DNA of 64,000 bases from Vibrio sp. HB236076 (lineage in GTDB: Bacteria; Pseudomonadota; Gammaproteobacteria; Enterobacterales; Vibrionaceae): NCBI RefSeq assembly GCF_040957575.1, contig NZ_CP162601.1, forward strand, positions 558,001 through 622,000. Direction: 5' to 3'. This document shows, in pieces, positions 6,780 to 49,222 of the stretch. The position numbers and the translations under genes were made by a program. The notes beneath the pieces are model-generated. The model had not been told where the DNA came from. It saw nothing but the letters and a program-made list of their open reading frames with translations, and ran no database searches. Position 1 is the stretch's first letter, and each line of letters starts with the position of its first letter.

Positions 6780-6934
6780 TAGGTTCTCGATGTGCTGTTT
6801 TTTTATACAGTTTAATCAGTTTGCTTAGAAGTGATAGTTTTTGGGCTTTTATTGTGTTTTGTGTCACTAAAAATGGTATTTATTAAACATGACTTTGAAC
6901 AAAAAAGTGATTTACTTAGTAAACGAATGGTAAC

Positions 6935-8504: not shown

Positions 8505-8602
8505 GTTTGTTCTCCCACGACTTAAAAAATGAATAAAGTATGCGCCGAGAGAAGAGAGTGAAGGGAAAACAGCGAGGAAAAAAAGATAGATAATCTAGAC
8601 CT

Positions 8603-8769
8603 CAGAAGCTCCTCATCAATTGAGTTGATGACAGTTGATGGGATTCAACCCAAGTCAACCGACAGATTTAAACCACACTTTAAATCTACCTCGGCATTGC
8701 TCCCCCTCTTTGTTTTGTATTGGATTTGCGGTTCCACAAAACAATTACCTGGGCAATGCTCCTCTTCTG
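8603..8769 (-). ncRNA. Lysine riboswitch (L box) in the lysC leader
   Basis: Read on the minus strand, the leader holds the conserved L-box segments in order: AGAAGAGGAGC with TTGCCCAGGTAA (8751-8768 region), GAGGGGGAGCAATGCCGAGG, a GGGTTGAATCCC-type arm and a closing AGGAGCTTCTG. The outer stem P1 pairs CAGAAG (8764-8769) with CTTCTG (8603-8608). In this family lysine binding at the five-way junction represses lysC, by terminating transcription or hiding the ribosome binding site. Downstream, TAGATTATCTA followed by a run of T (8580-8596) is a short terminator-like hairpin, so attenuation is the likelier mechanism. Confidence 0.93.
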
Positions 8770-8865
8770 CAATTTGCCCGCCCATTGAACGTGTTTATAC
8801 GTTTTTTGTCAATCGAAAAGTCATGTTATCTCAGTTGGCTTATAAGATTCGTGATCATGAAGATA

Positions 8866-13126: not shown

Positions 13127-13513
13127 ATGTTAGTCGGAGTCACACTTGGTAGTCGAGATTTACACAAAGCGGGTGAGTTTTATGATCAGTTACTCGCCGT
13201 AGTCGGGATGGAGCGCACCATGCAAGTTGAGGGTGAAATCGGTTATGGCCCAATTGGTGGGACGAGTTGCTTTTGGGTATTAACCCCTTTTAATCAAAAG
13301 CCTGCGACCGTTGGTAATGGTGTTCAGGTTACTTTTCAGGCGCGATCTCGAGCTGAAGTGGATGCGTTTCACCAAAAGGCGCTGGATCTAGGTGGTTCTG
13401 ATGAAGGTGCACCGGGATATCGTTATCGTCCTCATTACTACGGTGCTTATTGCCGCGATCTTGATGGGAACAAATTGCATGTGATGTTTGAAGGGCAAGA
13501 TGAATCAATATAA
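13127..13513 (+). CDS. VOC-family (glyoxalase/bleomycin-resistance fold) protein
   Basis: 128 residues forming one vicinal-oxygen-chelate module of two beta-alpha-beta-beta-beta repeats. The N-terminal half starts VGVTLGSRDLHKAGEFYDQLL, and the C-terminal half holds GAYCRDLDGNKLHVMFEG, the typical D-x-D-G-N strand ending with the metal-binding glutamate region. Members include small lyases, dioxygenases and binding proteins; many like this one are annotated only as glyoxalase-like. AAGGAG lies six bases before the ATG. The gene stands alone and its stop TAA runs directly into GGACAGGC. Confidence 0.82.
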   Translation: MLVGVTLGSRDLHKAGEFYDQLLAVVGMERTMQVEGEIGYGPIGGTSCFWVLTPFNQKPATVGNGVQVTFQARSRAEVDAFHQKALDLGGSDEGAPGYRYRPHYYGAYCRDLDGNKLHVMFEGQDESI

Positions 13514-13514
13514 G

Positions 13515-13637
13515 GACAGGCTAGATAGTCAATGCATCATTAAATACAAGTCGATAGGTTGCCTGTCCTAATATAGAAGCGATAACTGCCTTCCTAATAT
13601 GAAGGTGGATGTCTGGGATATCTTGCCTGTCCCTTTA
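13515..13637. repeat. Last family A element of the window
   Basis: GGACAGGC right after the VOC stop pairs with GCCTGTCC at 13561 across about 40 bases; a further GCCTGTCCC lies at 13625. The first family B element starts only about 15 bases later, so this is the point where the two repeat territories meet. Confidence 0.85.
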
Positions 13638-13650
13638 AAAGTTAGGAAAA

Positions 13651-13743
13651 AGACAGTGAATGACAGTGTGATACAGTTCGCTGTGTTTAACTATCTTGTA
13701 CTGTCTCATACTGTGTTTCACTGTCTTACACTGTTTTTCACTG
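13651..13743. repeat. Family B element, compact copy with both arms
   Basis: Left arm: ACAGT recurs at 10-base steps from 13652 (GACAGTGAAT, GACAGTGTGA, TACAGT). Right arm: ACTGT recurs at exactly 10-base steps from about 13699 to 13740 (ACTGTCTCAT, ACTGTGTTTC, ACTGTCTTAC, ACTGTTTTTC). A short GCTGTGTTTAA-type centre lies between the arms. The element ends about six bases from the stop codon of the minus-strand ligase gene. Confidence 0.9.
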
Positions 13744-13748
13744 CCCCA

Positions 13749-15608
13749 CTACAAAGCGCGGTTTAGCGGGGTGGTCGCGGTGCCTTTTGGCGCGTTGTTA
13801 TCGGGGGCAAAGTCGTGTCCCGGGAACAAGAAATCGGCCTCTTTTTTCACCTGTTGGACTTTTAACGGCATGTCAAGTTGACGATAAGCGGTGAGTAAAT
13901 TGCGGTAGTATTCCGTTCTAGGTTGATTTTGAATCATGCCTAATGCCCAATGGATATAGCGCTCAAGAGCAATGGGGTCTTGGTCTCTGAGGCCGTCTTT
14001 TAGGTCGGCGGTGTAACGCGCTTTGTCGAGTCGGTCTTGCCACAGGTAGGCGTTGAGTAAAGCACTCAGTTGCTCGGGGTGATCTTCCCCTTCGGCCTCG
14101 TAACGGGTGAGAGCCAGCCCGCTTTGTAAAGTGGTCACCAACACCAGAGTAGTCACGGTTGGAATAAGCCAGCAGCTCACTTGCAATCCTTTTTTCCAGC
14201 CTCTCCACAGCGGTAAGTCGTAGATTTTTCCACCGCGCTGATCGATCCAGTAAAGCAAGATCAAAAATGAAAGCCAGTGAATTGACGATAGATAGAACGG
14301 ATACTCGAGTTGGGTATGCAATAGTATCGGTACCAAGATCGAAAAGGTGGCTAAGCGCGTACCCGGTTTACCACGTCGCAGGCGATAAATCACATAACAC
14401 CCCGCAATGAGAATACCCAGTAAGGGCAGAGCACCACCTTCTACGCCCCAGTACAACAGCTCGTTTTGTGGGTGAGTGAGGTTGGGCAAACCGGCAGGGT
14501 AGTCTGGATTGAGGGCGTGTTGATGGGCGGTATACAAAATATAGCTTTCTTCAAAGCGCCCGTATCCATAGCCACTAAAGGGTTTTTCGATCAGCATGTC
14601 CAGGCTTTGCGGGTAAGTAAATGAGCGCGATGAGGTGAGCCCGAGTTTTTGTGCGGCGACACTTTCGCCGTCGAGTTGCTGGTCGGTGATAAGCCCTGCG
14701 CCGAGTACGATGCCGATCAAACACATCATCGCCCAGGTCATTGCACGTCGCCAAGGGACAAAACGGCGCAAATACGGCAGCATCAGCACTAATGAGACGA
14801 AAGTCGCCAGCCAAGCGGTGCGTGAGGCGATCATGATGATCAGCGGTAATAAAATTGTTGGTGTGACCAAACACACGGCGTGAATAAACCAGTGTTTGTT
14901 GTATTTATAGGGCAAACGAGCAAAGCAATAGGTGGCTAAGATGAGCCCCGTGGCCAAAAAGCTTGAGATCACATTTGGCTGTTGAAAGATCCCATAGGGC
15001 CGGTTGCTGTCGATGTTGTAACCGAGCAAGTTGTCGGCATCGAGTAAAAAGTATTGATAATAGGCGAACAGCGCTTCGATATTGGCGGCGAGAATAATCA
15101 AAAATAGCAAGCTCTGCTTTTGATTGTTGTTCAGCTTAAATTGTTGTAATACTGATAAAAAAAGCCAACCAGCCCAGAGTCCCACCAGGCGAGGAAGCGC
15201 GTGGCTTAGGTCGGATTCGGGGTAGAATATCGGCAGGCTCATCAAGACGCAGACCACCAACAACAAGACGCTGAGTTTGCTGACTCGCCAAGTGTTCATA
15301 CGCCATGCCTGCCACAAACCAATGCCAATAATCCAAGACGCGGCAATCCACGTGGTGAGGTTAAAGGGGAGCGAAAAGCCTTCTCCGCCGCTGTTGGGCA
15401 AAAAAATGTGCATAGCGAATAAATACAACACGGCCATGGAGACCATAAACAGTCGAGTTAGAGGTAAAACGATTGGCTTTGGAGCCAGTTTGGTGCCGCT
15501 GTAGTGAACGATGGCCATGGTGTTAGGTTCTCTTTTTCGGTCAACGTCGGGTGACGGTAGCAAAAGCTGGGCGTTATTGGCTTGGTTTATTGCACTCGAT
15601 GATGCCAT
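13749..15608 (-). CDS. pglL: PglL-type O-oligosaccharyltransferase / O-antigen ligase family protein
   Basis: About 619 residues, inner-membrane protein with some 11-12 transmembrane helices and the Wzy_C core. SRTAWL and a large periplasmic loop with YGYGRFEE and LTHPQNELL (around residue 378) match the PglL/WaaL/Wzy superfamily, where the loop histidine is essential. The C-terminal soluble region (about 520 onward) resembles PglL C-terminal domains. In V. cholerae the PglL homologue sits beside uvrA as here, so protein O-glycosylation is more likely than LPS ligation. Start unsure: ATG 15608 (AAGAGAG close by), ATG 15518 or TTG 15647 are all possible. Confidence 0.8.
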   Translation of the reverse strand: MASSSAINQANNAQLLLPSPDVDRKREPNTMAIVHYSGTKLAPKPIVLPLTRLFMVSMAVLYLFAMHIFLPNSGGEGFSLPFNLTTWIAASWIIGIGLWQAWRMNTWRVSKLSVLLLVVCVLMSLPIFYPESDLSHALPRLVGLWAGWLFLSVLQQFKLNNNQKQSLLFLIILAANIEALFAYYQYFLLDADNLLGYNIDSNRPYGIFQQPNVISSFLATGLILATYCFARLPYKYNKHWFIHAVCLVTPTILLPLIIMIASRTAWLATFVSLVLMLPYLRRFVPWRRAMTWAMMCLIGIVLGAGLITDQQLDGESVAAQKLGLTSSRSFTYPQSLDMLIEKPFSGYGYGRFEESYILYTAHQHALNPDYPAGLPNLTHPQNELLYWGVEGGALPLLGILIAGCYVIYRLRRGKPGTRLATFSILVPILLHTQLEYPFYLSSIHWLSFLILLYWIDQRGGKIYDLPLWRGWKKGLQVSCWLIPTVTTLVLVTTLQSGLALTRYEAEGEDHPEQLSALLNAYLWQDRLDKARYTADLKDGLRDQDPIALERYIHWALGMIQNQPRTEYYRNLLTAYRQLDMPLKVQQVKKEADFLFPGHDFAPDNNAPKGTATTPLNRAL

Positions 15609-15862
15609 GTCTCTCTTAACGTGGGTTGTGATCCCAACGAGATTCAATCATTTAGCATTTGAGTCGCTAATAAAAAGCTCGATAACAGTGTTTAAAAAAT
15701 GGTTAGAGTTACTGTTTAACCATTTGTTTATTTTAAATATTTATTTCTTCTCTCTTTTTACGCAGCGGTTCTCGTTATCCAATCGGTTTTGATTGTCTTC
15801 TCGAACAGCCGCGAACGCCCCGCTAAGTCAATAAGCTACCATATCAAGCGCCAGTGAGAAAT

Positions 15863-15928
15863 TGAAGCGCATCAAAGCGGTAAGTGGCTTTAGCCGTGGC
15901 TCACCACTCACTTTTTCTTTGCGCTTCA
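15863..15928. other. Structured inverted repeat between uvrA and pglL
   Basis: TGAAGCGC-CAAAG (15863-15877, two-base bulge) pairs with CTTTGCGCTTCA (15917-15928); an inner AGTGG/CCACT stem and GGC/GCC turns add to the fold. It sits just after the uvrA stop on the minus strand and could be a terminator, a 3'-UTR structure or part of the pglL leader. The rest of 15609-15942 is AT-rich and probably holds the pglL promoter; no repeat of family A or B occurs here. Confidence 0.5.
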
Positions 15929-15942
15929 CACGTTTGTTGGGG

Positions 15943-18774
15943 TTAATTTTTTGCCGTCAATAATGGGCCAAGAAAGCGTGCGGTGTGCGAACCAACTACT
16001 TTAGCAACGTCTTCTGGCGTGCCTTGCGCAATGATTTCGCCGCCGCCTTGCCCCCCCTCTGGCCCGAGGTCGACAATCCAGTCAGCGGTTTTGATCACGT
16101 CGAGATTGTGCTCGATGACCACCACGGTATTGCCGCGATCCCTTAGCTGATGAAGAACGGTAAGTAGCTGAGCAATATCGTGAAAGTGCAACCCTGTCGT
16201 TGGCTCATCGAGAATGTATAGCGTTTTGCCTGTGTCGCGTTTTGATAGCTCACGAGCTAATTTAACGCGCTGCGCTTCACCACCAGACAAGGTAGTGGCC
16301 GCTTGACCGAGGCGAATGTAAGACAAGCCGACGTCGATCAGAGTTTGCAGTTTACGGGCTATTACCGGCACGGGGGCAAAGAACTCACGAGCGTCTTCAA
16401 CTGTTAATTCAAGTACTTCCGCAATGGTTTTGCCTTTGTAGCGAATGTCGAGGGTTTCGCGGTTGTAGCGTTTCCCTTGGCAAGTATCGCAAGGGACATA
16501 GACATCGGGTAAAAAGTGCATTTCAACTTTGATGACACCGTCACCCTGACAAGCTTCACAGCGGCCGCCGCGCACGTTAAAACTAAAGCGGCCAGGTTTG
16601 TAGCCACGAGAGCGTGACTCTTGTGTGCCGGCAAACAATTCGCGTATTGGCGTGAAAATCCCTGTGTAGGTCGCAGGGTTAGAGCGCGGCGTGCGGCCAA
16701 TCGGGCTTTGATCAATGTCGATGACTTTGTCGAAGTGCTCCAATCCTTTGATCTTTTTATACGGCGCCGGTTTGGCTGTGGTGGCGCCATTGAGCGCGGT
16801 GTGGGCAATTTTGAAAAACGTATCGTTGATCAAGGTCGATTTACCTGACCCCGATACACCGGTGATACACGTGAATAGACCGACGGGCAGATTGAAGTCA
16901 ACGTCCTTGAGGTTGTTGCCACTGGCGCCACTCAAATTGACCATTTTTTTCTTGTCGACCGGGGTGCGCTGTGCAGGTACGGCAATCGCTTGTCGGCCAC
17001 TTAAGTATTGGCCGGTTAATGAATCTTCAGTGGCGATGATGTCTTCAACGCTGCCTTGTGCACAGATACTGCCGCCATGAACCCCAGCGCCGGGGCCGAT
17101 GTCGATCACGTGATCGGCACTGCGAATGGCGTCTTCATCGTGTTCGACGACCAAAACGGTATTACCAAGATCACGCAGGTGATTGAGGGTTTTGAGCAAG
17201 CGTTCGTTGTCGCGTTGATGCAAGCCAATCGAAGGCTCATCGAGAACGTACATCACGCCAACCAAACCAGCGCCAATTTGGCTCGCCAGTCGAATGCGTT
17301 GCGCTTCACCGCCGGAGAGGGTTTCTGCACTGCGCGATAGGTTGAGATAATTGAGCCCCACATTGACCAAAAAGTGCAAGCGGTCGTGGATCTCTTTCAT
17401 GACTTTTTCGGCGATTTTGGCACGCTGCCCTGTGAGCTCTAAGTTCTCGAAAAAGCGCAAGGTGTCGCCAATGCTGAGTTCGGTAATGGTCGGCAAGTTG
17501 GTGTCGCCGATAAACACGTGGCGAGCTTCTTGACGCAAGCGGGTGCCACCACAACTGGCGCAAGATTTGGTTGAAATCAACTTGCTGAGATCTTCGCGAA
17601 CGCTGTTCGATTCGGTTTCGTGGTAGCGGCGTTCAAGCGTGTTGAGAATGCCTTCAAAAGGATGGCGTTTGACGCGCATATCACCGCGGTCATTGACGTA
17701 TTTAAACTCAATATTTTGACGGCCAGAGCCTTGCAAAATAACCGATTGAATTTTCTTTGGCAGTTTTTCGAACGGCGTGGAAAGATCAAAATCATAATGC
17801 TCTGCTAAGGCGCTGAGCATTTGATAGTAATAAAAATTTCGTTTGTCCCAACCGCGAATTGCCCCATCGGCCAAACTGAGCGATGGGTCGGTGACCACGC
17901 GGTCGGCGTCGAAGTACTGTTGCACGCCAAGGCCATCACAGGTCGAACAGGCGCCGGCTGGGTTGTTGAACGAAAACAGCCTTGGCTCGAGCTCTTGCAT
18001 GCTGTAGCCACATTGTGAACAGGCGAAGTTAGCCGAAAAGACGATGTCGTTGCCAGGCTCGTCCATCGAAGAGGCCACTACCACGCCGCCAGTGAGCTCT
18101 AGGGCGGTTTCGAACGATTCGGCCAAGCGCTGTTGCAAGTCGTCGCGAATCTTAAAGCGGTCGACCACCACTTCTATCGTGTGTTTCTTTTGTAGTTCGA
18201 GCGACGGTGGATCGGATAGGTCGCAGATCTCGCCATCGATGCGAGCGCGGATAAAACCTTGAGCGGCGAGGTTTTGCAGGGTTTTACTGTGTTCGCCTTT
18301 GCGCTCTTTAATGATTGGAGCAAGGAGCATCCAGCGGCTGCCTTCAGCTTGTTCCAAGACTTTATCAACCATTTGGCTCACGGTTTGTGCCGCTAGTGGC
18401 TCATCGTGATCTGGGCAGCGAGGCTCACCGACGCGCGCATACAACAAGCGCAGATAATCGTAGATTTCGGTAATGGTGCCGACGGTTGAGCGAGGGTTGT
18501 GTGAGGTGGATTTTTGCTCGATCGAAATCGCTGGCGACAAGCCTTCAATGTGGTCGACATCGGGTTTTTCCATTAAGGATAAAAACTGGCGCGCGTAAGC
18601 TGAGAGGGACTCAACATAGCGTCTTTGCCCTTCGGCATAGAGAGTATCAAAGGCCAATGAGGATTTGCCTGAACCCGATAGCCCCGTGATCACAATCAGT
18701 TTATCTCGAGGAATGGTTAGGTTGATGTCTTTTAAGTTATGAGTGCGGGCACCGCGTACTTCGATCTTATCCAT
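15943..18774 (-). CDS. uvrA: UvrABC excinuclease ATPase subunit A
   Basis: 943 residues from the ATG at 18774 ([17 protein letters not shown]), the standard UvrA start. The open frame continues upstream to 18939, but those 55 codons are largely a family B repeat translated. UvrA dimers scan DNA for bulky lesions and load UvrB. Visible parts: Walker [10 protein letters not shown] (31-39), first zinc module CSQCG...CSTC, two [11 protein letters not shown] signatures, second Walker [10 protein letters not shown] and a second zinc finger CEACQGDG...CDTC. A LexA-like box lies 67 bases upstream of the start. qstR lies upstream on the same strand, separated by two family B elements. Confidence 0.98.
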
Positions 18775-18840
18775 TTTCACCGCTCTAAACAGGTTACCAA
18801 GCCTTAGTATGGCATACTCTGGGCAAAAGAGGGAAGTGAG

Positions 18841-18860
18841 AACTGTATAAAGAAACAGTA
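18841..18860 (-). promoter_or_regulatory. Candidate LexA (SOS) box upstream of uvrA
   Basis: CTGT (18843-18846), eight A/T-rich bases and ACAG (18855-18858), with flanking A and T, fit the gammaproteobacterial SOS consensus CTGT-N8-ACAG. Position 67-86 bases before uvrA is right for the known LexA regulon member. Caution: the right half-site borders repeat-like sequence, so part of it may derive from a family B element. Confidence 0.6.
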
Positions 18861-18885
18861 AAAAGAAGGTCGCTGTGCTTAAGGA

Positions 18886-19020
18886 AAGACAGTGAAGGAC
18901 AGTCAATAACAGTGAAACACAGTCCGCTGCGCTTAACACAGTGAAACACAGCGCTCAACGCCTAGCTCTAGGTTTTACTGTTTTACACTGTCTTATACTG
19001 TGTTTGACTGTTTTACACTT
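18886..19020. repeat. Full-length family B element, copy 1 between uvrA and qstR
   Basis: Left arm with ACAGT at 10-base steps, the common centre CCGCTGCGCTTAACACAG, a GCTCTAGGTTTT junction, then a right arm with ACTGT at 10-base steps ending near 19015. Copy 2 follows at 19093 with nearly the same centre, so the pair looks like a tandem duplication with a 70-base spacer. Confidence 0.9.
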
Positions 19021-19092
19021 TGATTTAAAACAGGTCGCTGCGCTGCAAGATCGTTTCACTGCAAGGACGCTTCGCTAAAGGGGCAAGGTAAA
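19021..19092. repeat. Family B spacer module of 16-bp units (AAGATCGCTGCGCTGC-like)
   Basis: Successive units of about 16 bases, each beginning CAAG or AAG and containing a CGCTGCGCT, GTTTCACTGC or CGCTTCGCT variant, ending with a GGCAAGG motif. The same module recurs at about 20955-21030, 26930-27000, 27325-27375, 50305-50385 and 50955-50975, always next to decamer arrays. Confidence 0.8.
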
Positions 19093-19234
19093 GATAGTGA
19101 AAGACAGTCAATAACAGTGAAACACAGTCCGCTGCGCTTAACACAGTGAAACACAGCGCTCACGCTTAGCTCTAGGTTTTACTGTGTTTCACTGTCTCAT
19201 ACTGTGTTTGACTGTTTTAAACTGTGTTTCACTG
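19093..19234. repeat. Full-length family B element, copy 2, abutting the qstR stop
   Basis: Left ACAGT arm 19094-19128, centre 19129-19180 and right ACTGT arm 19181-19234 with six ACTG cores at exact 10-base spacing. It ends five bases before the qstR stop codon. The inverted arms could form a long imperfect stem in the qstR transcript 3' end. Confidence 0.92.
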
Positions 19235-19238
19235 CTTA

Positions 19239-19883
19239 TTAATGCAAATTGTTACGAGCCCAGTACATGGCTTGAGTGCGATTGCCAACATCAATTTTTT
19301 TATAGATGTGATGGATATGGGTTTTAACTGTGTGCTCACTGATGTAGAGCTTGTCACTGATTTCTGAATTGGTTTCGCCGAGTCCCAAGCACTCCAAGAC
19401 TTCTTGTTCGCGAGCGGTCAACAGCCCTTTGGCGTAGGCAATGCGATTTAAAGTGCTTTCGCGGTAGTAGTACAGCAGTTGGCTGGCAATTTGACGCGGC
19501 AACCAGTCTTTGTTGTTGAGAATATTACTAATGCCATGGGTAATGGCACTTAACGGTGATTCACGCTGAAAAAAGCCCTTGAGACAACCAAAGCGCAATA
19601 AGTTGTCGGTTGGCAATGAATCACGCCCGTTGATGATGATCACATCGTGTTTGTAGAGGTCGACCTTGTGACGTTTGGCTTCCGCCAGCACGAGTTCTGA
19701 CTCAAAAAAATCAATCAGAAACACTTTGTGTGGGATATCGAGCTGCCCGAGGTTTGCCACCTTACACACTGTCAGTGATTGGTTGTGTTCTGCCAATGCT
19801 TCCGTTAGTTGGCTGGCCATCACGGGCTTATCGTGGCTGCTTAACATGATGAGTTGGCGCTGGTAGTAAGTGTTACTGTTCAT
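19239..19883 (-). CDS. qstR: LuxR/CsgD-family regulator, QstR-like
   Basis: 214 residues: degenerate receiver-like N-domain (1-140) and a C-terminal LuxR helix-turn-helix (about 150-210; LTAREQEVLECLGLGETNSEISDKLYISEHTVKTHI). The CsgD/VpsT group it belongs to has a W-[FLM]-[TS]-R c-di-GMP motif; here it reads WLPR (127-130), altered at the third position. In V. cholerae qstR lies next to ssb near uvrA as this gene does; QstR is made under TfoX and quorum sensing control and turns on DNA-uptake and type VI secretion genes. Name rests on synteny plus family. AAGGAG lies six bases before the ATG. VpsT-like function is the alternative. Confidence 0.72.
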   Translation of the reverse strand: MNSNTYYQRQLIMLSSHDKPVMASQLTEALAEHNQSLTVCKVANLGQLDIPHKVFLIDFFESELVLAEAKRHKVDLYKHDVIIINGRDSLPTDNLLRFGCLKGFFQRESPLSAITHGISNILNNKDWLPRQIASQLLYYYRESTLNRIAYAKGLLTAREQEVLECLGLGETNSEISDKLYISEHTVKTHIHHIYKKIDVGNRTQAMYWARNNLH

Positions 19884-20267
19884 GCTAGACTCCTTGTCGG
19901 TATGGGTAGTGGTTTTGATGTTTTTATTATGGTGTTGCCTTGGTATGAACTTAGTGTGTGGTCAAAGGCCGCCTCCGATGATGCGTTGAGGGCGAGTCGG
20001 TGATGGCTCTCTGCTCACTGAAAAGAGCTTGGTTAGCTAGTCGGGATTTTTCCAATCGAGAAAAAAATATTTGGGAAGCTCGTTGGCTTTTTACTCATCC
20101 ACTGGCGCCATAATTGAGAAAGGCGTAACATTTTTTCGCATTCTGCCCCCACGGAGGGTGACAGCGCATATAATCAGAACAGGTAGCCGCTTTGAACTTG
20201 TTTCCAAGGTAAAGCGTGGTATCCTTAGTCGCTAATTATCCAATCAGAACCTCAAACGGAGCACACT
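19884..20267. promoter_or_regulatory. Divergent qstR/ssb control region
   Basis: 384 bases without a gene. A TATAAT at about 20170 fits the ssb -10 box; no convincing -35 or LexA box (CTGT-N8-ACAG) was found, though ssb is SOS-linked in many relatives. The qstR side is AT-rich with no clear CRP-S/TfoX site by eye. Confidence 0.5.
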
Positions 20268-20822
20268 ATGGCGAGCCGTGGAATTAACAAAGTTATCTTA
20301 GTTGGTAATCTAGGTAACGACCCTGAAATCCGTTATATGCCCAGTGGTGGCGCTGTAGCGAACCTGACTCTTGCAACTTCGGAGTCATGGCGCGATAAAG
20401 CGACTGGCGAACAGCGTGAAAAAACCGAATGGCACCGCGTGGCCTTGTTTGGCAAGTTGGCGGAAGTGGCGGGTGAGTACCTGCGCAAAGGCTCTCAAGT
20501 TTACATTGAAGGGCAATTGCAGACGCGTAAATGGCAAGATCAAAGCGGTCAAGACCGTTACACCACCGAAGTGGTTGTACAAGGCTTTAACGGTGTGATG
20601 CAAATGCTTGGCGGTCGTCAAGGTGGCGGTGCCCCTATGGGTCAAGGCGGCCAACCTGCCGGCGGTCAACAAGGCTGGGGTCAACCACAACAGCCTCAGT
20701 ATCAGCAGCCTCAATCTTCTCCAGCGCCAGCACAATCGGCCCCGAAAGCGCCGCAACAGCAGCCGCCGGCTCAGCAGTACAATGAGCCACCAATGGATTT
20801 TGACGACGATATTCCGTTTTAA
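20268..20822 (+). CDS. ssb: Single-stranded DNA-binding protein
   Basis: 184 residues: N-terminal OB fold (1-115; [19 protein letters not shown] and the aromatic W residues in ESWRDK and RKWQDQ), a Gly/Gln/Pro-rich linker (115-172) and the acidic tip DFDDDIPF that recruits repair and replication partners. Tetramers coat single-stranded DNA during replication, recombination and transformation. The start has a CGGAG-type site. A strong terminator follows at 20846. Next to uvrA and qstR it keeps the Vibrio order. Confidence 0.98.
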
Positions 20823-20845
20823 TCTCGGCCTGTTTATGTTGTTAG

Positions 20846-20873
20846 AAACCACTCCTCGCGAGTGGTTTTTTTT
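20846..20873 (+). terminator. ssb Rho-independent terminator
   Basis: ACCACTC (20848-20854) and GAGTGGT (20860-20866) form a 7-bp stem with a five-base loop, followed by a run of T. A family B element starts within three bases of the T-run. Confidence 0.93.
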
Positions 20874-20875
20874 AA

Positions 20876-21092
20876 GAAGACAGTGAAAGACAGTGTGACA
20901 CAGTAAAACACAGTAAAACACAGTTCGCTTCGCTTAACACAGGGAAAAGATAGATCGCTGCGCTTAAAAAGAAGATCGCTGCGCTGCAAGATCGTTTCAC
21001 TGCAAGGACGCTTCGCTCAAGTGGCAAGGAAAAGACAGTGAAAGACAGTGTGACACAGTAAAACACAGTCCGCTGCGCTAAACACAGGGAAA
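20876..21092. repeat. Family B left half with two decamer blocks
   Basis: Two blocks of ACAGT in 10-base phase (20880-20930 and 21035-21070) flank a 16-bp-unit module (about 20955-21030). This is the outer left shell of a nested composite reaching 21638. The long open frames on the minus strand here are translated repeat, not genes. Confidence 0.88.
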
Positions 21093-21097
21093 AAGTT

Positions 21098-21283
21098 CAG
21101 GACACCCACCAATTTGTTTGCGGTGAAATACATGGGTGTCCTGTAACTGGTTCTTTTCTAACTCAAACGGGGTCGGATTTGCGAGATAGACTGACTGACC
21201 TAGCGCTCTGTGCTGTGCGGATCCGACCCCTAGACGTGATGAGTTTAATGGACTAAGAATCAGTGTTGATGTAGGCGCAGTCA
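21098..21283. repeat. Compound C-D element, copy 1
   Basis: C part: AGGACACCCA (21099-21108) and TGGGTGTCCT (21133-21142), perfect 10-bp inverted arms. A linker TTTTCTAACTCAAACG leads to the D part: GGGGTCGGAT (21169-21178) and ATCCGACCCC (21221-21230), again perfect 10-bp arms. A tail with GTGATGAG and CTAAGAATCA follows. The same C-linker-D-tail order recurs at 50493-50685. Confidence 0.88.
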
Positions 21284-21336
21284 TTTGTGTGGGTTGGTGA
21301 GTTTAGTTTGTCTTTGCTAAGTCAGTTCGAGCTATA

Positions 21337-21398
21337 GGGGGCGGATCAACAAACGTTGATCGCCGTGGTGATTATAGCGATCTCGCGAATCCGACCCC
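21337..21398. repeat. Inverted D element (D')
   Basis: GGGGGCGGAT (21337-21346) and ATCCGACCCC (21389-21398) with GCGATCTCGCGAATCCGACC at the right end. Its reverse complement starts like D at 21169, so D and D' face each other across about 105 bases. Confidence 0.85.
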
Positions 21399-21444
21399 GA
21401 TTATCCTGCACTTTGATTTCGTCACTCACTGCAACGCTCTTTTT

Positions 21445-21488
21445 AGGACAGCCATCAATTTTGAGGTGATTAAATACATGGGTGTCCC
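21445..21488. repeat. Second C element, same orientation
   Basis: AGGACAGCCA (21445-21454) and TGGGTGTCCC (21479-21488) with a diverged loop that keeps ATCAATTTT and AAATACATGGGTGTCC. It is a direct, older copy of the C unit at 21098. Confidence 0.78.
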
Positions 21489-21496
21489 GTAAATAA

Positions 21497-21638
21497 AGTA
21501 AAACACAGTCCGCTGCGCTAAACACAGTAAATGACAGGGGAACACAGCTATCAAAGTTCAGATCTAGGTTTTACTGTTTTTTACTGTCTTACACTGTGTT
21601 TGACTGTTTTTCACTGTCTCATACTGTGTTTCACTGAG
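21497..21638. repeat. Family B right half closing the composite
   Basis: The CCGCTGCGCTAAACACAG centre and the TCTAGGTTTT junction lead into seven ACTGT cores at exact 10-base spacing (about 21578-21638). With 20876-21092 it brackets the C, D, D' and C units. Confidence 0.9.
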
Positions 21639-21789
21639 GGAGCTCTCCCCGTCTTGATATTCATCAAAAACACCTCAAACAGTGAATTAATCCATTCGCC
21701 TAATCACTGTGCTTCTGCCTATAATTAATCAAGTGATTAATTTGCATCGACCCTGCCTTGTTATAGGAGGTCTTTGATGAGGGAATATC

Positions 21790-22440
21790 ATGGCAGAGCC
21801 ACCACGCCGAGCGGGGCGTCCACAACAGCCTACGCAAGCTCGAGAAACATTAATTCATCAGGCGCGAGCGCTGTTTGTCTCCAAGCCCTACGCCCAAGTT
21901 TCACTGCGTATGGTGGCCAAAAACGCTGGGGTGAACAGTGCGCTTATCCATTATTACTTCACTGACAAGGCGGGGTTGTTTGAAGCGGTGATACGAGAAA
22001 CCATCGCGCCGATGTTGAGTAATATTGAGCGTCTGTTGGCACAACAATCCCCAGACTCTTTTTATCAATTAATGGAAATCTACTATCAAGAAATGGGCAA
22101 AGTGCCTGATTTTCCTCGTCTCATTTTTCAAACATTGTATGGCGCTAACCACGAAACCCCCAGGCAATTGCTCGACGGTATTTTTGGCGATATTACGTCA
22201 CTGATTGAACGTTTATTTGCCCATATTGCCGATAATCATCTACTTCAGCCTGATATTGATAGCCGTTTGGCGCGTATTAGTTATCTCAGTTTAATGGTCT
22301 TTCCTTTTTTGGCGCCCCCTGCGTTTTATCAAATGCATCATATTGAGCTTAGTGAGGACTTTCTCAAGCGCTTATATCAACACAATCTCCACGTGATCCG
22401 TCACGGTTTTTTACAAACGGAGTCGAAGTGCCAAGAGTGA
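21790..22440 (+). CDS. TetR-family repressor of the adjacent RND operon
   Basis: 216 residues: N-terminal helix-turn-helix (about 15-65; SLRMVAKNAGVNSALIHYYFTDKAGLFEAV) and a C-terminal ligand domain (about 80-210). It lies 56 bases before an efflux adaptor gene and is co-directional, so it most likely represses this operon and is released by a pump substrate. Start ATG 21790 gives the family N-terminus (MAEPPRRAGRP) with only GAGGG upstream; the much better AGGAGG site points to an out-of-frame ATG at 21777. Confidence 0.88.
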   Translation: MAEPPRRAGRPQQPTQARETLIHQARALFVSKPYAQVSLRMVAKNAGVNSALIHYYFTDKAGLFEAVIRETIAPMLSNIERLLAQQSPDSFYQLMEIYYQEMGKVPDFPRLIFQTLYGANHETPRQLLDGIFGDITSLIERLFAHIADNHLLQPDIDSRLARISYLSLMVFPFLAPPAFYQMHHIELSEDFLKRLYQHNLHVIRHGFLQTESKCQE

Positions 22441-22496
22441 GAGACAACTTGCCCCGCCACAGCGGCGGATGAATACATCAAAGGAGTAACAAGATA

Positions 22497-23753
22497 ATGG
22501 CATCGAGGTGGATAAGCGCAGTGGTTATCGCACTGTCTGTGGTGGCGGTTTGGTTGGCGGTGCAAAGTCGGCTTCAGCCCACGGACATTGACAGTGTGGC
22601 TTACACGCCAGTTGTGAACGTGGTTACCGTCACGGAGCGAGAGGTGGCCCCCCAAGCGATGGGGTATGGCGTTGTCGCCGCTCAGCAAGATTGGCAAATG
22701 GTGGCACAGGTTGCTGGTGAGGTGGTGTTTAAACACCCGAATCTACAGACGGGGTTCCAATTGCCACAAGGGGAAACCGTGTTGCAGATGGATGATCTTG
22801 ACTATCAATTGCGCTTTGAACAAGCCAAGGCTCAAGTCAGTGAGTACCAAGCAGAATTAATGCGTAAGCAACAACAGAAAAAAAATCTACACGACTCGAT
22901 ACGCCTAGAGCAGCAACACCTTTCTTTGCTGGAAAAAGAGGTTCAACGCCAGTTGCGCCTGCAAAGTAAAGGGTTGGGGGTTGATGTTGATCTCGATACT
23001 CAGCGCCGAGCGGTCTTGACTCAGCAAGGGGCCTTGTCCGCCTTACAACAAGAGTTGGCTTTGTGGCCCAGTGAGGTGGCCAAAACCGAAGCACAATTGG
23101 CCAATGCGCAAGCCCAATGGCAACTGGCGCAGCGCGAGCGAGAAAAAACGCGCTGGCAACTCGCGCAGCCCGTTTATGTTGAGGAGGTCAGTGTGACGCT
23201 TGGTCAGTGGGTCAATGCTGGCCAAGTTCTGGCCTCGGGTTATCAGATGGGCGCAATGACATTGCCGGTGATGATCTCACAACAAGCGTGGTCGGTACTG
23301 ATGGCACAAGGCGGTTTTCAAAACGCGACGGCCCAAATCAGTTGGCAGCAAGGGGCCCACACCACACAGATCGACGCTGGGGTTCGCAGTGTCGGTCAAG
23401 GTGTAGATACCACGACGTCGATGGTCACGGTTACGCTGGAGCTTCCCCTCTCACAAGGCGTGAACCGCGAGGGAATATCGCCCATGCCGACCAAAGGACA
23501 GATGGTCACCGCACAGATCAACGGCCAACCGAGCCGGCAGATGGTGATCCCCGCCAGCGCTTTACACGGTGATAAGGTTTATCGCTTGAGCGCCGATAAT
23601 CAGGTGGAGTTTGTTGCGGTGACGCCTTTGTTTTCTCAGCAAGGCTGGGTGGCCATTGACTCTGAGTTACGCCGCGGCGATCGCCTTATTGCTCAAGACC
23701 TTTTACCCGTGGTTGAGGGAATGCGTGTTCGCCCTGAAGGAGAGGCATTGTGA
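22497..23753 (+). CDS. RND efflux periplasmic adaptor (membrane fusion protein)
   Basis: 418 residues: N-terminal membrane anchor or signal (about 5-25, WISAVVIALSVVAVWLAV, no lipobox seen), split lipoyl domain, an alpha-helical hairpin (about 100-215, rich in Q, E, L and K), a beta-barrel region and a membrane-proximal domain. It bridges the inner-membrane RND pump to an outer-membrane TolC-like channel. AAGGAG lies nine bases before the ATG. Its TGA overlaps the pump's GTG start by four bases, so translation is coupled. No outer-membrane factor is encoded here, so TolC elsewhere must complete the pump. Confidence 0.9.
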   Translation: MASRWISAVVIALSVVAVWLAVQSRLQPTDIDSVAYTPVVNVVTVTEREVAPQAMGYGVVAAQQDWQMVAQVAGEVVFKHPNLQTGFQLPQGETVLQMDDLDYQLRFEQAKAQVSEYQAELMRKQQQKKNLHDSIRLEQQHLSLLEKEVQRQLRLQSKGLGVDVDLDTQRRAVLTQQGALSALQQELALWPSEVAKTEAQLANAQAQWQLAQREREKTRWQLAQPVYVEEVSVTLGQWVNAGQVLASGYQMGAMTLPVMISQQAWSVLMAQGGFQNATAQISWQQGAHTTQIDAGVRSVGQGVDTTTSMVTVTLELPLSQGVNREGISPMPTKGQMVTAQINGQPSRQMVIPASALHGDKVYRLSADNQVEFVAVTPLFSQQGWVAIDSELRRGDRLIAQDLLPVVEGMRVRPEGEAL

Positions 23754-26700
23754 TTGCTTTTTTTACTCGTCATCCTACCGCAGCCAATTTGTTGATGTTG
23801 GCGATGTTGGTATTAGGGGTATCCTCGTTGAGCGGACTTAAACGCGAGACGTTTCCCGAATTTGCCCCGCCTTATGTTTCCATCAACGCCGTTTACCCCG
23901 GTGCGTCGGCCAAGGAGGTGGAACAGGAATTGTGCCTTCGAATCGAAGAGGCGATGGATGGCTTGTCCAATATCGATGAGGTGCGCTGTGAGTCGTTAGA
24001 GGGGGTGGCCGAGGCGAAGATCAAGCTCAATAGTCAAGCACCACTGTCGCGAATGCTGCTCGATATTCAAACCCAAATTGATGCGATTGACGATTTTCCT
24101 CAGGCGTTGGAGTCTGTGGTTGTACAAGAGTTGGATTGGAAAGAGCCGGTGATTGATATCGCCATCAGTGCCCCGCTGAGTTTGCCCGAACTGAAGTTGT
24201 ATGCCGAGCAACTTAAACGCGAACTCAAACAACAAATGGGGGTGGCGTTGGTGACGGTAACCGGGTTTTCTGATCACTTGTGGCGAGTGGATGTTGATCC
24301 ATTGGCACTGCGCCAGTTAGGCATGAGCGTCGCGCAAATTGCCGATCAACTCGGCGGGCAAATTCAGTCTTCGCCGGCGGGGACCTTATCGACGGCGCAA
24401 GGGGAGTTTTTGATCCGCTTTGGCGATGCGGTAACGTCTGTGGAAGATTTGAACGCCTTGGTGGTGGCGGCGGATGAGCAAGGCCGACAAGTGAGGCTGG
24501 GTGAAATCGCTCGTATTGACGATCAATTTGAGCTGGCTGAAAACAAAATTCTTTTTGACGATAAACCCGCCGCGGTACTGAAGATCTACAAACGAAAAAG
24601 CGATGATGCGTTAGACATCAAAGCCAAAGTGGCTGAGTTTGTCGAACAACAACGCCAGTTTACCCCAACCGGTGTAACGCTCACATTGAGCAATGATCTG
24701 TCCTCGGTACTGTGGGACCGCTTGTCGATGATGATCAAAAACGGCGCGCAGGGCATTGTGCTGGTGTTTTTGTGTATGTGGTTGTTCTTCTCGTTCCGCT
24801 ATTCTCTGTGGGTCGCGCTTGGTTTGCCAGCGGCTTTTTTGGGTGGCTTGTTTTTAATGGCTCAATTGGGGCTGTCGATCAACGTGATGTCCTTAGTCGG
24901 TCTGTTAATGGCGATAGGGATCATGATGGACGATTCGATAGTGATTGCCGAGTCCGTCGCCTCGCATATTGACCGCGGTCAGCCGCTCGAGCAAGCGGTC
25001 GTCAATGGGGTAACAAAAGTCTTACCTGGGGTGATGTCTTCTTTTTTGACCACCTTGTGTATTTTTGGCGGCTTGTTGTTTCTCGATGGTCAGATGGGCG
25101 CGGTGCTCAAAGCCGTACCCCAGGTGTTGATTTTAGTCTTAGCGCTGAGTTTGATCGAGGCATTTTGGATTCTACCTCATCACTTAGCCACTTCTTTGCG
25201 CGGTGAACAAAACAAGCGGTCAATGTTGCGGGGGCCTTGGCCGATAAAAACAAGGTTGTTGAGTCAGTTTGAACGCTTTCGCCAAGGGGCATTGGTTCGC
25301 GCGGTGGATGCGGTGCTGCGCTATCGCTACCTTTTCTTGGCGTGCGTCTTGGCAAGTCTTCTGTTTGCGTTGGCCGCGGTGATCGGTGGCATTGTTCGTT
25401 TTCAGCCGTTCCCGACCATGGATGGCGATGTGATTGAAGCGCGTGTGACCTTACCACCAGGGACGCCTTTGTCTCAAACCGAATCGCTAGTGGCGAAGAT
25501 TGCCGCGGGGGCCAAACAAGCCGCGACGGAGTTAAGTCGCACTAAGGAAGGGGGGCGTGTGTTGCTGCGCCACCTCACTGAGCAATATAACCACAATGCC
25601 GATGCCAACGAAAGCGGGCCGCATTTGGCAACGGTACGGCTGGATTTACTGACCGCCGAAGCGCGCCATACCACGATCAGCGAATTTATTGCTCATTGGC
25701 GAGACGCGGTGGGCGAGTTGGCCGGCCCGATTGCCGTTGTCTACAAACAGCCAGCGATGGGGCCGGGGGGACGTGCGGTCGATTTTCGTATGATGCACGA
25801 CGATCTTAATGTGCTCAAACAAGCGTCGTTGCAAAGCCAACACTATTTGCGCTCCTTGGGCCTCAATGGCGTTGTTGATAGTATGCGCCTTGGCAAGCCT
25901 GAGTATGTGTTAACCCTCAAAGCCAATGCCTTGCGCTTGGGGCTAAACCGGGCTGAGGTGGCCGAGCAAATTCGCTCGGCTTTGCTTGGTATCACCGCAA
26001 ATGAGCGGCAATGGCGAGGCGAGAGCATTGATATCGAGGTGCGGATCGCTGACGATAAGCTCGATCAACTCAGCGAATTAGAAAACCTACCGATACAATT
26101 GGCCGATGGTCAGTTTGCGCCTTTATCTGCTTTAGTCGAGATTCAACCCCAGCGCGATTATGTGGCGATAGAGCGAATTGATGGACGCCGAGCCATCAGT
26201 GTTTATGCCGAGACGTATGGCACGTCATTGAGCTCGACGGAAGTCAATCGCCGTTTGAGCCAAGACTTACAGCCGCGATTACAGGCCGAGTTCCCAGGTT
26301 TGCGATTTGCCAGTGATGGCGAAGCCAAAGACGCAGCGCAAACTGGGCAGTCGATGGCGAAAGGCTTTTTGCTCGGTTTGTTTGGCGTGTTTGTTATTTT
26401 AAGTTATCAATTTCGCAGTTACATCGAGCCTTTGGTGGTGATGTTGGCGATCCCGTTAGCGCTGATCGGCGTTATCGTTGGGCATGGGCTGTTGGGTTAC
26501 CCATTGAGTATGCCCAGTGTGATGGGCTTTATTTCGTTGGCGGGTATTGTGGTCAATGATTCTATTTTGTTGGTGCAGTACATTCGTCATCATTTGCAGG
26601 AGGGCGAGCCGTTACATCAGTCGCTGATTTTAGCCAGCCGAGAGCGTTTTCGAGCGGTGTTCTTAACCTCGGTGACCACCGCCGCCGGTTTGTTGCCTTT

Positions 26701-26857
26701 GTTGTTTGAGCCGAGTTTACAGGCCCAAGTGTTGAAGCCGCTCGTGATTGCCATTGTGTTTGGGGTCTTTAGTTCGACCTTGCTGGTGATTTTTATGGTG
26801 CCGGCCGCGTATCAGGTTCTCGATGATTTTGAGTTGACGAGGAGAGACAGGGAATGA
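23750..26857 (+). CDS. RND-family efflux pump permease
   Basis: 1035 residues with the AcrB/MexB/HAE architecture: TM1 at 10-30, a large periplasmic loop, TM2-6, a mid-protein hydrophobic segment, a second periplasmic loop (about 550-860) and TM8-12. GIMMDDSIVIAES in TM4 carries the paired aspartates of the proton relay. N-terminal FFTRHPTAANLLMLAM and KRETFPEFAPP resemble the less-studied VexCD/YegN-like group rather than AcrB. The GTG start overlaps the adaptor stop. Its substrates are unknown. The final codons (RRDRE, stop) merge with the start of a family B repeat. Confidence 0.93.
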   Translation: MIAFFTRHPTAANLLMLAMLVLGVSSLSGLKRETFPEFAPPYVSINAVYPGASAKEVEQELCLRIEEAMDGLSNIDEVRCESLEGVAEAKIKLNSQAPLSRMLLDIQTQIDAIDDFPQALESVVVQELDWKEPVIDIAISAPLSLPELKLYAEQLKRELKQQMGVALVTVTGFSDHLWRVDVDPLALRQLGMSVAQIADQLGGQIQSSPAGTLSTAQGEFLIRFGDAVTSVEDLNALVVAADEQGRQVRLGEIARIDDQFELAENKILFDDKPAAVLKIYKRKSDDALDIKAKVAEFVEQQRQFTPTGVTLTLSNDLSSVLWDRLSMMIKNGAQGIVLVFLCMWLFFSFRYSLWVALGLPAAFLGGLFLMAQLGLSINVMSLVGLLMAIGIMMDDSIVIAESVASHIDRGQPLEQAVVNGVTKVLPGVMSSFLTTLCIFGGLLFLDGQMGAVLKAVPQVLILVLALSLIEAFWILPHHLATSLRGEQNKRSMLRGPWPIKTRLLSQFERFRQGALVRAVDAVLRYRYLFLACVLASLLFALAAVIGGIVRFQPFPTMDGDVIEARVTLPPGTPLSQTESLVAKIAAGAKQAATELSRTKEGGRVLLRHLTEQYNHNADANESGPHLATVRLDLLTAEARHTTISEFIAHWRDAVGELAGPIAVVYKQPAMGPGGRAVDFRMMHDDLNVLKQASLQSQHYLRSLGLNGVVDSMRLGKPEYVLTLKANALRLGLNRAEVAEQIRSALLGITANERQWRGESIDIEVRIADDKLDQLSELENLPIQLADGQFAPLSALVEIQPQRDYVAIERIDGRRAISVYAETYGTSLSSTEVNRRLSQDLQPRLQAEFPGLRFASDGEAKDAAQTGQSMAKGFLLGLFGVFVILSYQFRSYIEPLVVMLAIPLALIGVIVGHGLLGYPLSMPSVMGFISLAGIVVNDSILLVQYIRHHLQEGEPLHQSLILASRERFRAVFLTSVTTAAGLLPLLFEPSLQAQVLKPLVIAIVFGVFSSTLLVIFMVPAAYQVLDDFELTRRDRE

Positions 26858-27444
26858 CAATGAAAGACAGTGTGACACAGTGAATTACAGTCCGCTGCGC
26901 TTAACACAGGGAAAAGATAGGTCGCTGCGCTGAAAAAGAAGATCGCTGCGCTTCAAGATCGTTTCACTGCAAGGACGCTTCGCTCAAGTGGCAAGGAAAA
27001 GACAGTGAAAAATAGTGAATGACAGTGTGACACAGTAAAACACAGTTCGCTGCGCTTAACACAGTGAATGACAGTGAGAGCGAAAGTTCAGGACACCCAC
27101 CAATTTGTTTGCTGTGAAATACATGGGTGTCCTGTTTTTTTGGGTGTCCTGTTTTTTGCTTGCAGTGAAAGACAGTGTGACACAGTGAATTACAGTTCGC
27201 TGCGCTTAACACAGTGAATGACAGGGAGAGTGAAAGTTCAGGACACCCACCAATTTGTTTGCTGTGAAATACATGGGTGTCCTGTAACTCTTCTCCCGTA
27301 ACTCGTTTTTAGGTTTTCTTGCAACTTGAAACGAAGTGATCTTGCTACTTGGAGCGCAGCGATCTTGCTACTTGTTTTCCTGTCTTTTCCTGTCCCACAC
27401 TGTGTTTGACTGTCCTATACTTTCTTTAACTGTATTTTACCTCC
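26858..27444. repeat. Composite B-C-B-C-B repeat region after the RND gene
   Basis: B decamers overlap the RND stop; a 16-bp-unit module (26930-27000); a B block plus C element (C at 27090-27133); a T-run with a second half C arm (27141-27150); a near duplicate B block plus C (C at 27240-27283); a reversed 16-bp-unit module; then a degraded right arm with ACTGT in 10-base phase (27400-27440). No gene is present. The C arms followed by T-runs probably terminate the efflux operon. Confidence 0.88.
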
Positions 27445-27562
27445 CGCGCGGGGTAAACTAACGGCTCCCACTGGTTTGGGCGTTATTTTGTTCTTTGGTC
27501 ATGGAAATTGACCGTGATTATCATTGCCAGTCGCACATTGGTTGAAAAGGAATTCACTCTTT

Positions 27563-49102: not shown

Positions 49103-49222
49103 AGAGCAGCGCCCTTTGTGGTGATCGAGCCCTCGAGTCGTTTTTTCTACCACAGCGCCATGTCGCCCCCTCATTTAGGGTTGGTTTAGCTGGGCATGGT
49201 TGCTGTTCAACAAGGAGAAGTT

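Follow-up and report, generated by a model that had tools for sequence, protein, structure and literature searches.

The genome of Vibrio sp. HB236076 (two contigs, C1 and C2; 3.88 Mb) carries dispersed repeats, here called the B family, in which the pentamers ACAGT and ACTGT are arrayed in exact 10-bp steps. Positions 18886-19234 of the window (the whole stretch analysed: 64,000 nucleotides, C1:558001-622000, contig NZ_CP162601.1) are made up of two palindromic elements, 18889-19021 and 19094-19235, separated by a linker; each has ACAGT cores on the left, a centre (CCGCTGCGCTTAACACAG) and ACTGT cores on the right, with 10-bp steps in both arms. The explanation that we tentatively favour, at somewhat short of an even chance, is that such elements form non-autonomous, replication-coupled mosaics resembling bacterial interspersed mosaic elements (BIMEs), spread by repetitive extragenic palindrome (REP)-associated tyrosine transposases (RAYTs), and that their arrays bind a protein multimer. 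Since the mosaics lie near gene 3' ends, show a strand bias and share the genome with RAYT-like genes, an origin as mobile repeats accounts for more of the evidence than a purely regulatory binding array.

Architecture of the arrays

Array counts cover the window and 14 further stretches of the same genome that were picked for holding arrays (272,008 bases in all; stretches are designated by L numbers), whereas genome totals combine genome-wide pattern searches with the stretches read. With one core mismatch allowed, 108 arrays comprising 495 ACTGT or ACAGT units were called. The sequence ACTGT-N5-ACTGT occurs 50 times in the window, against a mean of 0.04 and a maximum of 1 in dinucleotide shuffles. 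Pooled steps between exact cores are 10 bp in 282 cases, 11 bp in three and 9 bp in none (ACTGT to ACTGT: 169, 1 and 0; ACAGT to ACAGT: 113, 2 and 0), and the few other core steps, of 5, 6, 14, 15 and 18 bp, occur once or twice each. Of 282 exact 10-bp pairs, 169 are followed by the next exact core at +10, and none by one at +6 to +9 or +11 to +14. The layout given in a preliminary description of this DNA, with a left ACAGT arm, a centre and a right ACTGT arm in 10-bp phase, is thus confirmed, and variable spacing elsewhere in the genome, which by that description would have refuted it, was not found, the phasing being exact in all own-genome stretches read. The 20-bp higher-order alternation that it proposed was also borne out: spacer identity at lags of two and four units exceeds that in all 500 within-array shuffles, identity at lag one falls below all 500, and identity at lag three does not differ from the shuffles. 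The centre, CGCT[T/G]CGCTTAAC, imposes a core step of 19 bp and not 20.

Conservation was measured on alignments anchored on the centre alone (32 copies, 30 of them non-redundant), so that arrays were not picked by their cores. The three upstream core blocks nearest the centre are 77-100% conserved, compared with 33-60% for the spacer of the second unit and a mixed 50-90% for that of the first. The fourth block outward is 37-67% conserved, no better than its own spacer, as expected if many left arms stop there. Conserved cores together with exact phasing make both cores and spacing look recognised. Off-step spacings are nearly absent though spacers vary widely, so that spacing and core look constrained, or else needed by a copying machinery. 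The arrays would most likely bind a protein multimer, with about one dimer per helical turn.

Neutral minisatellite growth, in which slippage or template switching enlarges a 10-bp repeat and selection merely bars it from genes and promoters, would account for a homogeneous run of GTTTG units in one C2 array, for the resemblance between nearby arrays and for the mostly homogeneous tandem runs among five-unit matches in other organisms. It is nevertheless unlikely, because spacers differ widely yet steps stay at 10 bp and near-centre cores are conserved, whereas unconstrained repeats are in general expected to gain insertions and deletions and to lose core and spacer letters alike. The longest array (L152:5380-5524, C2 at approximately 140.4 kb) has 15 units with mostly GTTTG spacers and looks freshly expanded.

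The arms are inverted with respect to each other, as in the palindromes of REPs and BIMEs, and single-armed arrays occur too. Complementarity between spacers is no higher within an element, from one arm to the other, than between swapped arms (0.561 versus 0.620; 18 pairs; mean fractional rank 0.652), which argues against maintained spacer pairing. Palindrome correction, or hairpin pairing as a conserved feature, was dropped as a candidate on this test, small as the sample of 18 pairs is. Whole elements fold well as DNA, with z scores of -5.6, -1.9 and -6.0 against shuffles for three of them. A minihairpin formed by the B unit itself was rejected, the heptamer GTGAAAC being missing from most spacers by eye. 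A terminator scan of window positions 13500-27700 gave 28 terminator-like sites compared with 18.3 in shuffles, among them three at centres or arms that lack a proper T run (18934-18915, 19139-19120 and 21519-21502, all on the minus strand).

Mosaic organization

B arrays are accompanied by four other kinds of repeat: A hairpins (GGACACCCA..TGGGTGTCC), D repeats (GGGGTCGGA or GGGGTCAGAG), E hairpins (CCCACGCGGGAGC) and C modules (CTTGGAGCGAAGCGATCTTG). The DNA within 400 bp of a B array makes up 15.6% of the bases examined and holds 41 of 55 A, 73 of 88 D, 6 of 7 E and 82 of 92 C copies, both strands counted. The preliminary description had read the phased elements as sites of cooperative protein binding or as structural devices; exact phasing and conserved cores speak for this, but the element is a module of a mosaic and not a free-standing unit.

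The C pattern has 56 matches in this genome and none in 226 others. A longer E pattern matches six times here. Five of these sites are at C1 474-499 kb, four lying 47 bp and one 470 bp from an array, and the sixth is at C2 268.8 kb, approximately 100 bp from a centre. The same pattern is absent from 97 other genomes and present 55 times, on both strands, in one more, a genome of the same genus (G297), as copies of the E hairpin TTCCCACGCNGGAGCNTGGGAACGAG.

In C modules, the heptamer preceding GATCTTG has a GNA loop and a two-pair stem that is kept through paired changes. Among 84 C sites the heptamers include ACGAAGT (23), GCGAAGC (17), GTGAAAC (14), GCGCAGC (11) and ACGCAGT (3), although these variants may be a few inherited paralogues. 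Two C modules folded as DNA showed no excess stability (z 0.96 and -0.78). The accessible part of PMC4686876 describes exceptional stability for DNA minihairpins whose stems are G-C pairs. C modules such as those at window 27317-27366 and L146:9960-10020 could be a natural use of super-stable DNA minihairpins.

Placement relative to genes and replication

Genes were called by a simple greedy rule as open reading frames (ORFs) of at least 120 aa, with uncertain starts. The arrays are extragenic, dispersed and present in many copies, as REPs and BIMEs are: an overlap with a called ORF (120 aa or longer) occurs in 12 of 108, located at the ORF's 3' end or at a start probably called too far upstream, as is probably the case for the array that overlaps uvrA. 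After exclusion of clusters of fewer than four units and of loci at tRNA/rRNA-like operons, 27 clusters remained, flanked by gene ends in the combinations 3'/3' (12), 5'/3' (9), 3'/5' (5) and 5'/5' (1). At least one gene 3' end therefore adjoins 26 of the 27. In the same stretches, 24 of the 100 intergenic spaces that measure 60 bp or more, those with elements counted, have divergent flanks; clusters have them less often (1 of 27 versus 23 of 73, Fisher p 0.003, the 27 being taken as part of the 100). The gap to the stop codon is -40 to 21 bp at 19 of 38 cluster edges that face a 3' end and at none of 16 that face a 5' end; the remaining 3'-facing gaps reach 1.6 kb.

Placement bears on the possibility that the arrays are platforms for a host DNA-binding protein unrelated to mobility, organising or regulatory in role, for example a ribbon-helix-helix or helix-turn-helix protein with a dimer per 10-bp unit, like ParR on parC. 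The exact steps, the better conservation of near-centre cores than of spacers and the retention of cores in single-armed arrays (window 57994-58068; L148) would all fit such a protein; ParR contacts at 10-bp repeats are described in the accessible part of PMC5016525, and five phased ACTGT cores in other bacteria coincide in part with a promoter-like sequence upstream of a GntR-type gene. The reading is rather unlikely, in that the arrays lie behind genes and not in promoters, as the scarcity of divergent flanks indicates, and the family is genome-specific and embedded in hairpin mosaics. No candidate protein was found, nor any partition operon among the flanking genes scanned, a genome-wide search not having been made.

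The same placement invites a reading in which the elements act as RNA, forming hairpins in 3' untranslated regions that terminate or protect transcripts from both sides. Half of the 3'-facing edges lie close to a stop codon, in contrast to none of the 5'-facing ones, and whole elements fold well, although with DNA parameters. An RNA role is quite unlikely, however, given the own-arm spacers that pair no better than swapped ones, the single-armed arrays, an array behind ssb that lies past a sequence resembling an intrinsic terminator by eye (which the consensus scan did not list), and an orientation of centres that transcription direction does not set.

That orientation appears to follow replication. 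All 43 centres found genome-wide with up to two mismatches lie on the G-rich strand of positive GC skew, which presumably is the leading strand, as judged from skew in the sampled stretches. The centres are forward in 34 of 34 cases in positive-skew DNA (C1 0.37-0.90 Mb) and reverse in 9 of 9 cases in negative-skew DNA (seven at C1 2.6-2.95 Mb and two on C2). At 18 intergenic loci of C1 476-640 kb, 27 of 27 centres are on the plus strand, with flanking genes arranged -- at 8, ++ at 4, +- at 5 and -+ at 1. C modules on C1 are forward in 34 of 35 cases in right arms and reverse in 8 of 9 in left arms. Y1 transposases of the IS200/IS605 group act on the lagging-strand template (PMC6006769, accessible part), and an action of this kind would explain the orientation of the mosaics to replication.

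RAYT-like transposases

A search with PF01797 found no RAYT in this genome, a false negative: the RAYT-like protein of the window scores 20.1 bits, below the cut-off of 23. The notion that the genome lacks a mobiliser was dropped once NF047646 matched eight RAYT-like genes, all below threshold (best E 3.3e-9, 38.1 bits, short of the curated cut-off of 80), in open frames of 320-393 aa, or 319-393 aa as called ORFs. They lie at C1 490, 555, 564 (window 5817-6779), 713, 1299, 1978 and 2114 kb and at C2 865 kb; three of the eight, one of them in the window, are in the dense array region. NHYH and FWE are present in all eight proteins, and NHYH is exactly 110 residues from Y[VTA]DLNP in seven, the Y motif having not been found in the eighth. 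As given in the accessible part of PMC6006769, RAYTs of subclass 2.3 have NHYH, WE and Y-DLNP, a HuH-Y distance of 110 and about 325 aa. The eight predicted proteins match TnpA-Y1 (RAYT) subclass 2.3 by motifs and HuH-Y distance, and the presence of several diverged copies per genome is a further likeness to the subclass as described there.

Among the best 120 of 7999 homologues of the C1:490-kb protein, those with names are transposase or RayT, and some with 52-64% identity bear the Joint Genome Institute (JGI) name 'REP element-mobilizing transposase RayT'. A structure model of a RAYT-like protein is weak (mean pLDDT 62.6); with it, Foldseek placed Y1 transposases, including 4er8 (probability 0.75), at the top of the PDB list, with a best E of 0.22 and none reaching 0.001. 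No reverse transcriptase was found in this genome with PF00078, a negative that the failure of PF01797 keeps from being absolute, and copying by reverse transcription was dropped for want of a PF00078 match.

Motifs flanking the RAYT genes

The motif GGACA[GC]NC occurs in the flanks of all eight RAYT genes, partly as inverted pairs and most commonly as GGACAGTC. Within 450 bp on each side of the eight genes there are 35 matches (4.82/kb), as against four (0.04/kb) in approximately 102 kb of mostly coding control DNA, and GGACAGTC itself occurs 14 times in the flanks and not at all in that control. GGACAGTC contains ACAGT, the B core, and since the motif flanking the transposase genes (GGACAGTC and relatives) thus holds the core, the transposase or a partner of it is the leading candidate for the array binder. 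One RAYT flank (L201) holds GGACAGTCAATA, a string also found in the first window element from 18898, and the A motif GGACACCCAT flanks the RAYT gene at C1:489446-490465. Other RAYT flanks hold GGACAGTC with its ACAGT core, and their listed positions show no 10-bp array.

Flanks were also compared for 13 of 14 homologues from a plasmid collection, of which the eight without a detected NHYH had the gene end set at a fixed position. GGACA[GC]NC lies near four of five NHYH homologues (12 matches) and one of eight without NHYH found (one match), compared with a mean of 1.5 and a maximum of 6 in mononucleotide shuffles of the pooled flanks. The motif-bearing relatives belong to Aeromonas, Photobacterium, Saccharobesus and Vibrio tritonius. 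This occurrence next to related genes of other bacteria hints at generality, 13 homologues being too few for more than a hint.

A second pattern may link the RAYT genes to DNA damage. A LexA box requires CTGT-N8-ACAG, whose CTGT half-site the arrays share. The 272 kb contain four such patterns, one at uvrA, two at RAYT genes and one elsewhere, none of which touches an array; by pattern, the arrays are not LexA boxes. The ACTGT at 18842, outside the array, combines with an ACAGT 13 bp further on into CTGT-N8-ACAG upstream of uvrA, and the resulting site at window 18843-18858 (CTGTATAAAGAAACAG), distinct from the adjoining arrays, we take to be a likely LexA/SOS box by its geometry. With RAYT starts set at a conserved MT..R, the exact pattern lies at -29 to -31 before five of eight (window 6795-6810, minus strand; L142:1430-1445; and upstream of the RAYT genes in L198, L200 and L201). 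It is one mismatch away before two more (-33 and -29) and absent at C1:1299 kb. None of the 13 homologues of other species showed an exact match. Judged from the box consensus, LexA may place the transposases under SOS induction. No description of LexA control of a RAYT, or of the array design, appeared among the matches listed in open-licence PubMed Central literature. The nearest match on the LexA point is reportedly a study of an ISCR transposase and the SOS response.

A model for the spread of the mosaics

We infer that RAYTs may move the mosaics and bind their arrays, and that LexA may control the RAYT genes. The mosaics would be built of modules, namely 10-bp-phased ACAGT/ACTGT arms, the CGCTNCGCTTAAC centre, C minihairpin modules and A, D and E hairpins, and would be copied into gene 3' ends with a fixed orientation to replication. 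The copying would probably be the work of the resident subclass 2.3 Y1/HUH transposases, with single-stranded DNA of the fork as substrate and DNA damage perhaps as inducer. In a more specific form of this model, the 10-bp arrays and GGACA[GC]NC would be the missing DNA partners of subclass 2.3. Transposases of this subclass, which have additional insertion and C-terminal domains, would recognise GGACANNC/ACAGT sites in tandem or in pairs and not a hairpin tagged with GTAG. A transposase multimer would assemble on one face of the DNA, the SOS response would switch it on via promoter LexA boxes, and copies of BIME-like mosaics would enter gene 3' ends on a single strand of the fork. The whole scenario, SOS switch and multimer included, is less likely than not.

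Several observations weigh against spread by RAYTs. In the fairer control, intergenic DNA of dense regions that is free of B arrays and RAYT genes, GGACA[GC]NC has 46 matches in 23.9 kb (1.92/kb) and GGACAGTC has three (0.13/kb). Of 253 internal B cores, GG precedes 19, C follows 57 and both hold for 10, so that most B cores are not the full RAYT motif. GGACAGGC adjoins two of the three in-cluster RAYT genes and is rare near B arrays (3 of 44). No enrichment of a GTAG/GTGG foot was found: of 108 arrays, 6 have GT[AG]G in the 11 nt beyond their outer edge, about 5% being expected. Centres are partly local, related copies and hence not independent orientation events; 14 of 43 lie behind tRNA operons, whose direction may fix theirs; and C modules at C2 811-823 kb oppose the strand rule in 12 of 12 cases. 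Other Vibrio carry related RAYTs, yet the B family is unseen in 226 other genomes of the genus. The nearest relative among 61 genomes searched has 76% uvrA identity, too distant for an empty-site test, and termini and target duplications could not be defined.

Elements in the window

The left arm of the first element (18889-18923) has four ACAGT cores in 10-bp steps, that is, ACTGT on the minus strand. It is followed on the plus strand by the centre ACAGTCCGCTGCGCTTAACACAG (18919-18941, C1:576919-576941) with its 19-bp core step, the right arm of ACTGT in 10-bp steps (18977-19021) and the linker (19027-19090), which carries a C-type module (GGTCGCTGCGCTGCAAGATCGTTTCACTGCAAGGACGCTTCGCT). The second element consists of a left arm (19094-19128, minus strand), a centre (19124-19146, C1:577124-577146, plus strand) and a right arm (19181-19235, plus strand) that ends 3 bp from the stop codon of a LuxR-type gene (19239-19883, minus strand). 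Another B element (13653-13744, plus strand) lies 4 bp from the stop codon of the gene at 13749-15647 (minus strand). Behind ssb (20268-20822, plus strand) are two left arms (20880-21069, minus strand) and, further downstream, the right arm of the mosaic (21573-21637, plus strand).

The mosaic at the AcrB-type gene (23750-26857) has left arms that overlap its stop codon (26847-27196, minus strand), and includes two copies of an A-type hairpin (CAGGACACCCACC..TGGGTGTCCTG; 27089-27134 and 27239-27284), a C module of the right type with GNA heptamers before GATCTTG (27317-27366, plus strand) and a right arm (27379-27433, plus strand). A nine-unit left arm (50197-50281, minus strand), 11 bp past the stop codon of the gene at 49196-50185 (plus strand), shares its intergenic region with a right arm (50898-50942, plus strand), and the single-armed array mentioned above (57994-58068, plus strand) is a right arm only, 153 bp behind the gene at 56905-57840 (plus strand). 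The window's RAYT-like Y1 transposase gene (5817-6779, minus strand) encodes 320 aa with NHYH, FWE and YTDLNP, is flanked by GGACAGTC/GGACAGGC motifs and has its exact LexA-box pattern (6795-6810) just upstream. A lysine riboswitch (RF00168, 98.3 bits) is present at 8598-8774 (minus strand).

Distribution and relation to known repeats

A search of 227 genomes of the genus, this one included, gave 170 matches to three consecutive units in this genome (control 0). Six others had one or two such matches, with two spacers identical in five of the six, like plain tandem repeats, and a reversed control pattern matched in three of the 227. Searches of the genus and family used exact-core patterns, which a strongly diverged family would escape; by these, the B family was not seen in the 226 other genomes, and 150 genomes of the family yielded one further single match. 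Four-unit matches in this genome number 92, most of them at C1 0.47-0.64 Mb, with further loci at C1 418, 892, 1737, 2648 and 2905 kb and at C2 140 and 811-823 kb. The loci at C1 418, 892, 2648, 2905 and 2947 kb, as well as the one at C2 268 kb, sit downstream of tRNA genes in operons that resemble rRNA operons by their tRNAs, a spacer tRNA being followed approximately 3.6 kb on by tRNA-Asp or tRNA-Ser. Spacer sequence is shared more between arrays 0.7-10 kb apart than between distant ones (0.783 versus 0.704; value reached in 0 of 300 permutations). BLAST against plasmids and phages gave no match at E 1e-5, and a scan of viral contigs with the centre gave none.

A five-unit scan of a collection of species genomes, this genome excluded, gave 81 stretches. 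The 80 examined (L051-L130; L131 excluded) mostly have one spacer type, with at least three different spacers of four in 12 (first match per strand counted). Four from Lachnospiraceae/Solobacterium (L054:2080-2124, L121:3002-3046, L082 and L094) have five ACTGT cores in 10-bp steps with differing spacers that overlap a promoter-like TTGACA..TATA, an arrangement that looks like an operator with equal geometry; genes for a GntR-type regulator, an ABC ATPase and a permease, as named by eye from translations, follow the array in L054 and L121. A ACTGTTCTAG run in Gammaproteobacteria bacterium MOLA455 (L089:5829-5893) resembles the TCTAG/CCTAG spacers of the C2 811-823 kb arrays.

The preliminary description knew of no described family of this design. 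Six exact strings were found in no open-licence PubMed Central paper searched, and Rfam at gathering scores gave nothing at the arrays, the lysine riboswitch being its sole match in the window. As far as the accessible part of PMC2817692 describes REPs and BIMEs, the arrays resemble them in being extragenic, high-copy, palindromic, mosaic and genome-specific in a genome with rayt genes. In three marine gammaproteobacteria, according to that source, REPs accumulate no more than 200 kb from a rayt gene, and the arrays likewise accumulate locally, in a region of comparable size with a rayt gene inside. They differ from the elements described there in that GTAG/GTGG feet are not enriched, the arms are tandem 10-bp arrays and not one 20-40 nt hairpin, and the asymmetric centre keeps one orientation to replication, whereas REP/BIME orientations alternate. 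The accessible part of PMC6006769 describes subclass 2.3 genes as not flanked by identifiable REP-like structures; in contrast, all eight genes here are flanked by GGACA[GC]NC.

The parC sites of ParR, in the accessible part of PMC5016525, are tandem direct repeats, 10-bp ones included, sometimes in two arrays, with one dimer per repeat. The arrays share this tandem design, but are inverted, scattered over the chromosomes and close to gene 3' ends, and the flanking genes scanned include no par gene. The enterobacterial repetitive intergenic consensus (ERIC) sequences of Vibrio cholerae are likewise intergenic repeats in the same genus, but are approximately 100-127 bp long, with no tandem 10-bp design in the accessible part of their description (PMC2267715).

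Significance

A design of exactly phased arrays with conserved cores and free spacers, approximately 100 copies of them in a single genome among 227, is unusual for dispersed repeats of bacteria, and the new feature is an arm of tandem sites about one helical turn apart. The genome offers a testable answer to the question of which DNA the RAYTs of subclass 2.3 act on, for which GGACA[GC]NC is proposed. Should the arrays bind the transposase, they would give a single-strand transposase a new means of labelling its substrate; should a host protein bind them, they could serve directly as bait to identify it. Repeat spread would be tied to DNA damage if the LexA-box pattern, which precedes most of the RAYT genes, is functional.
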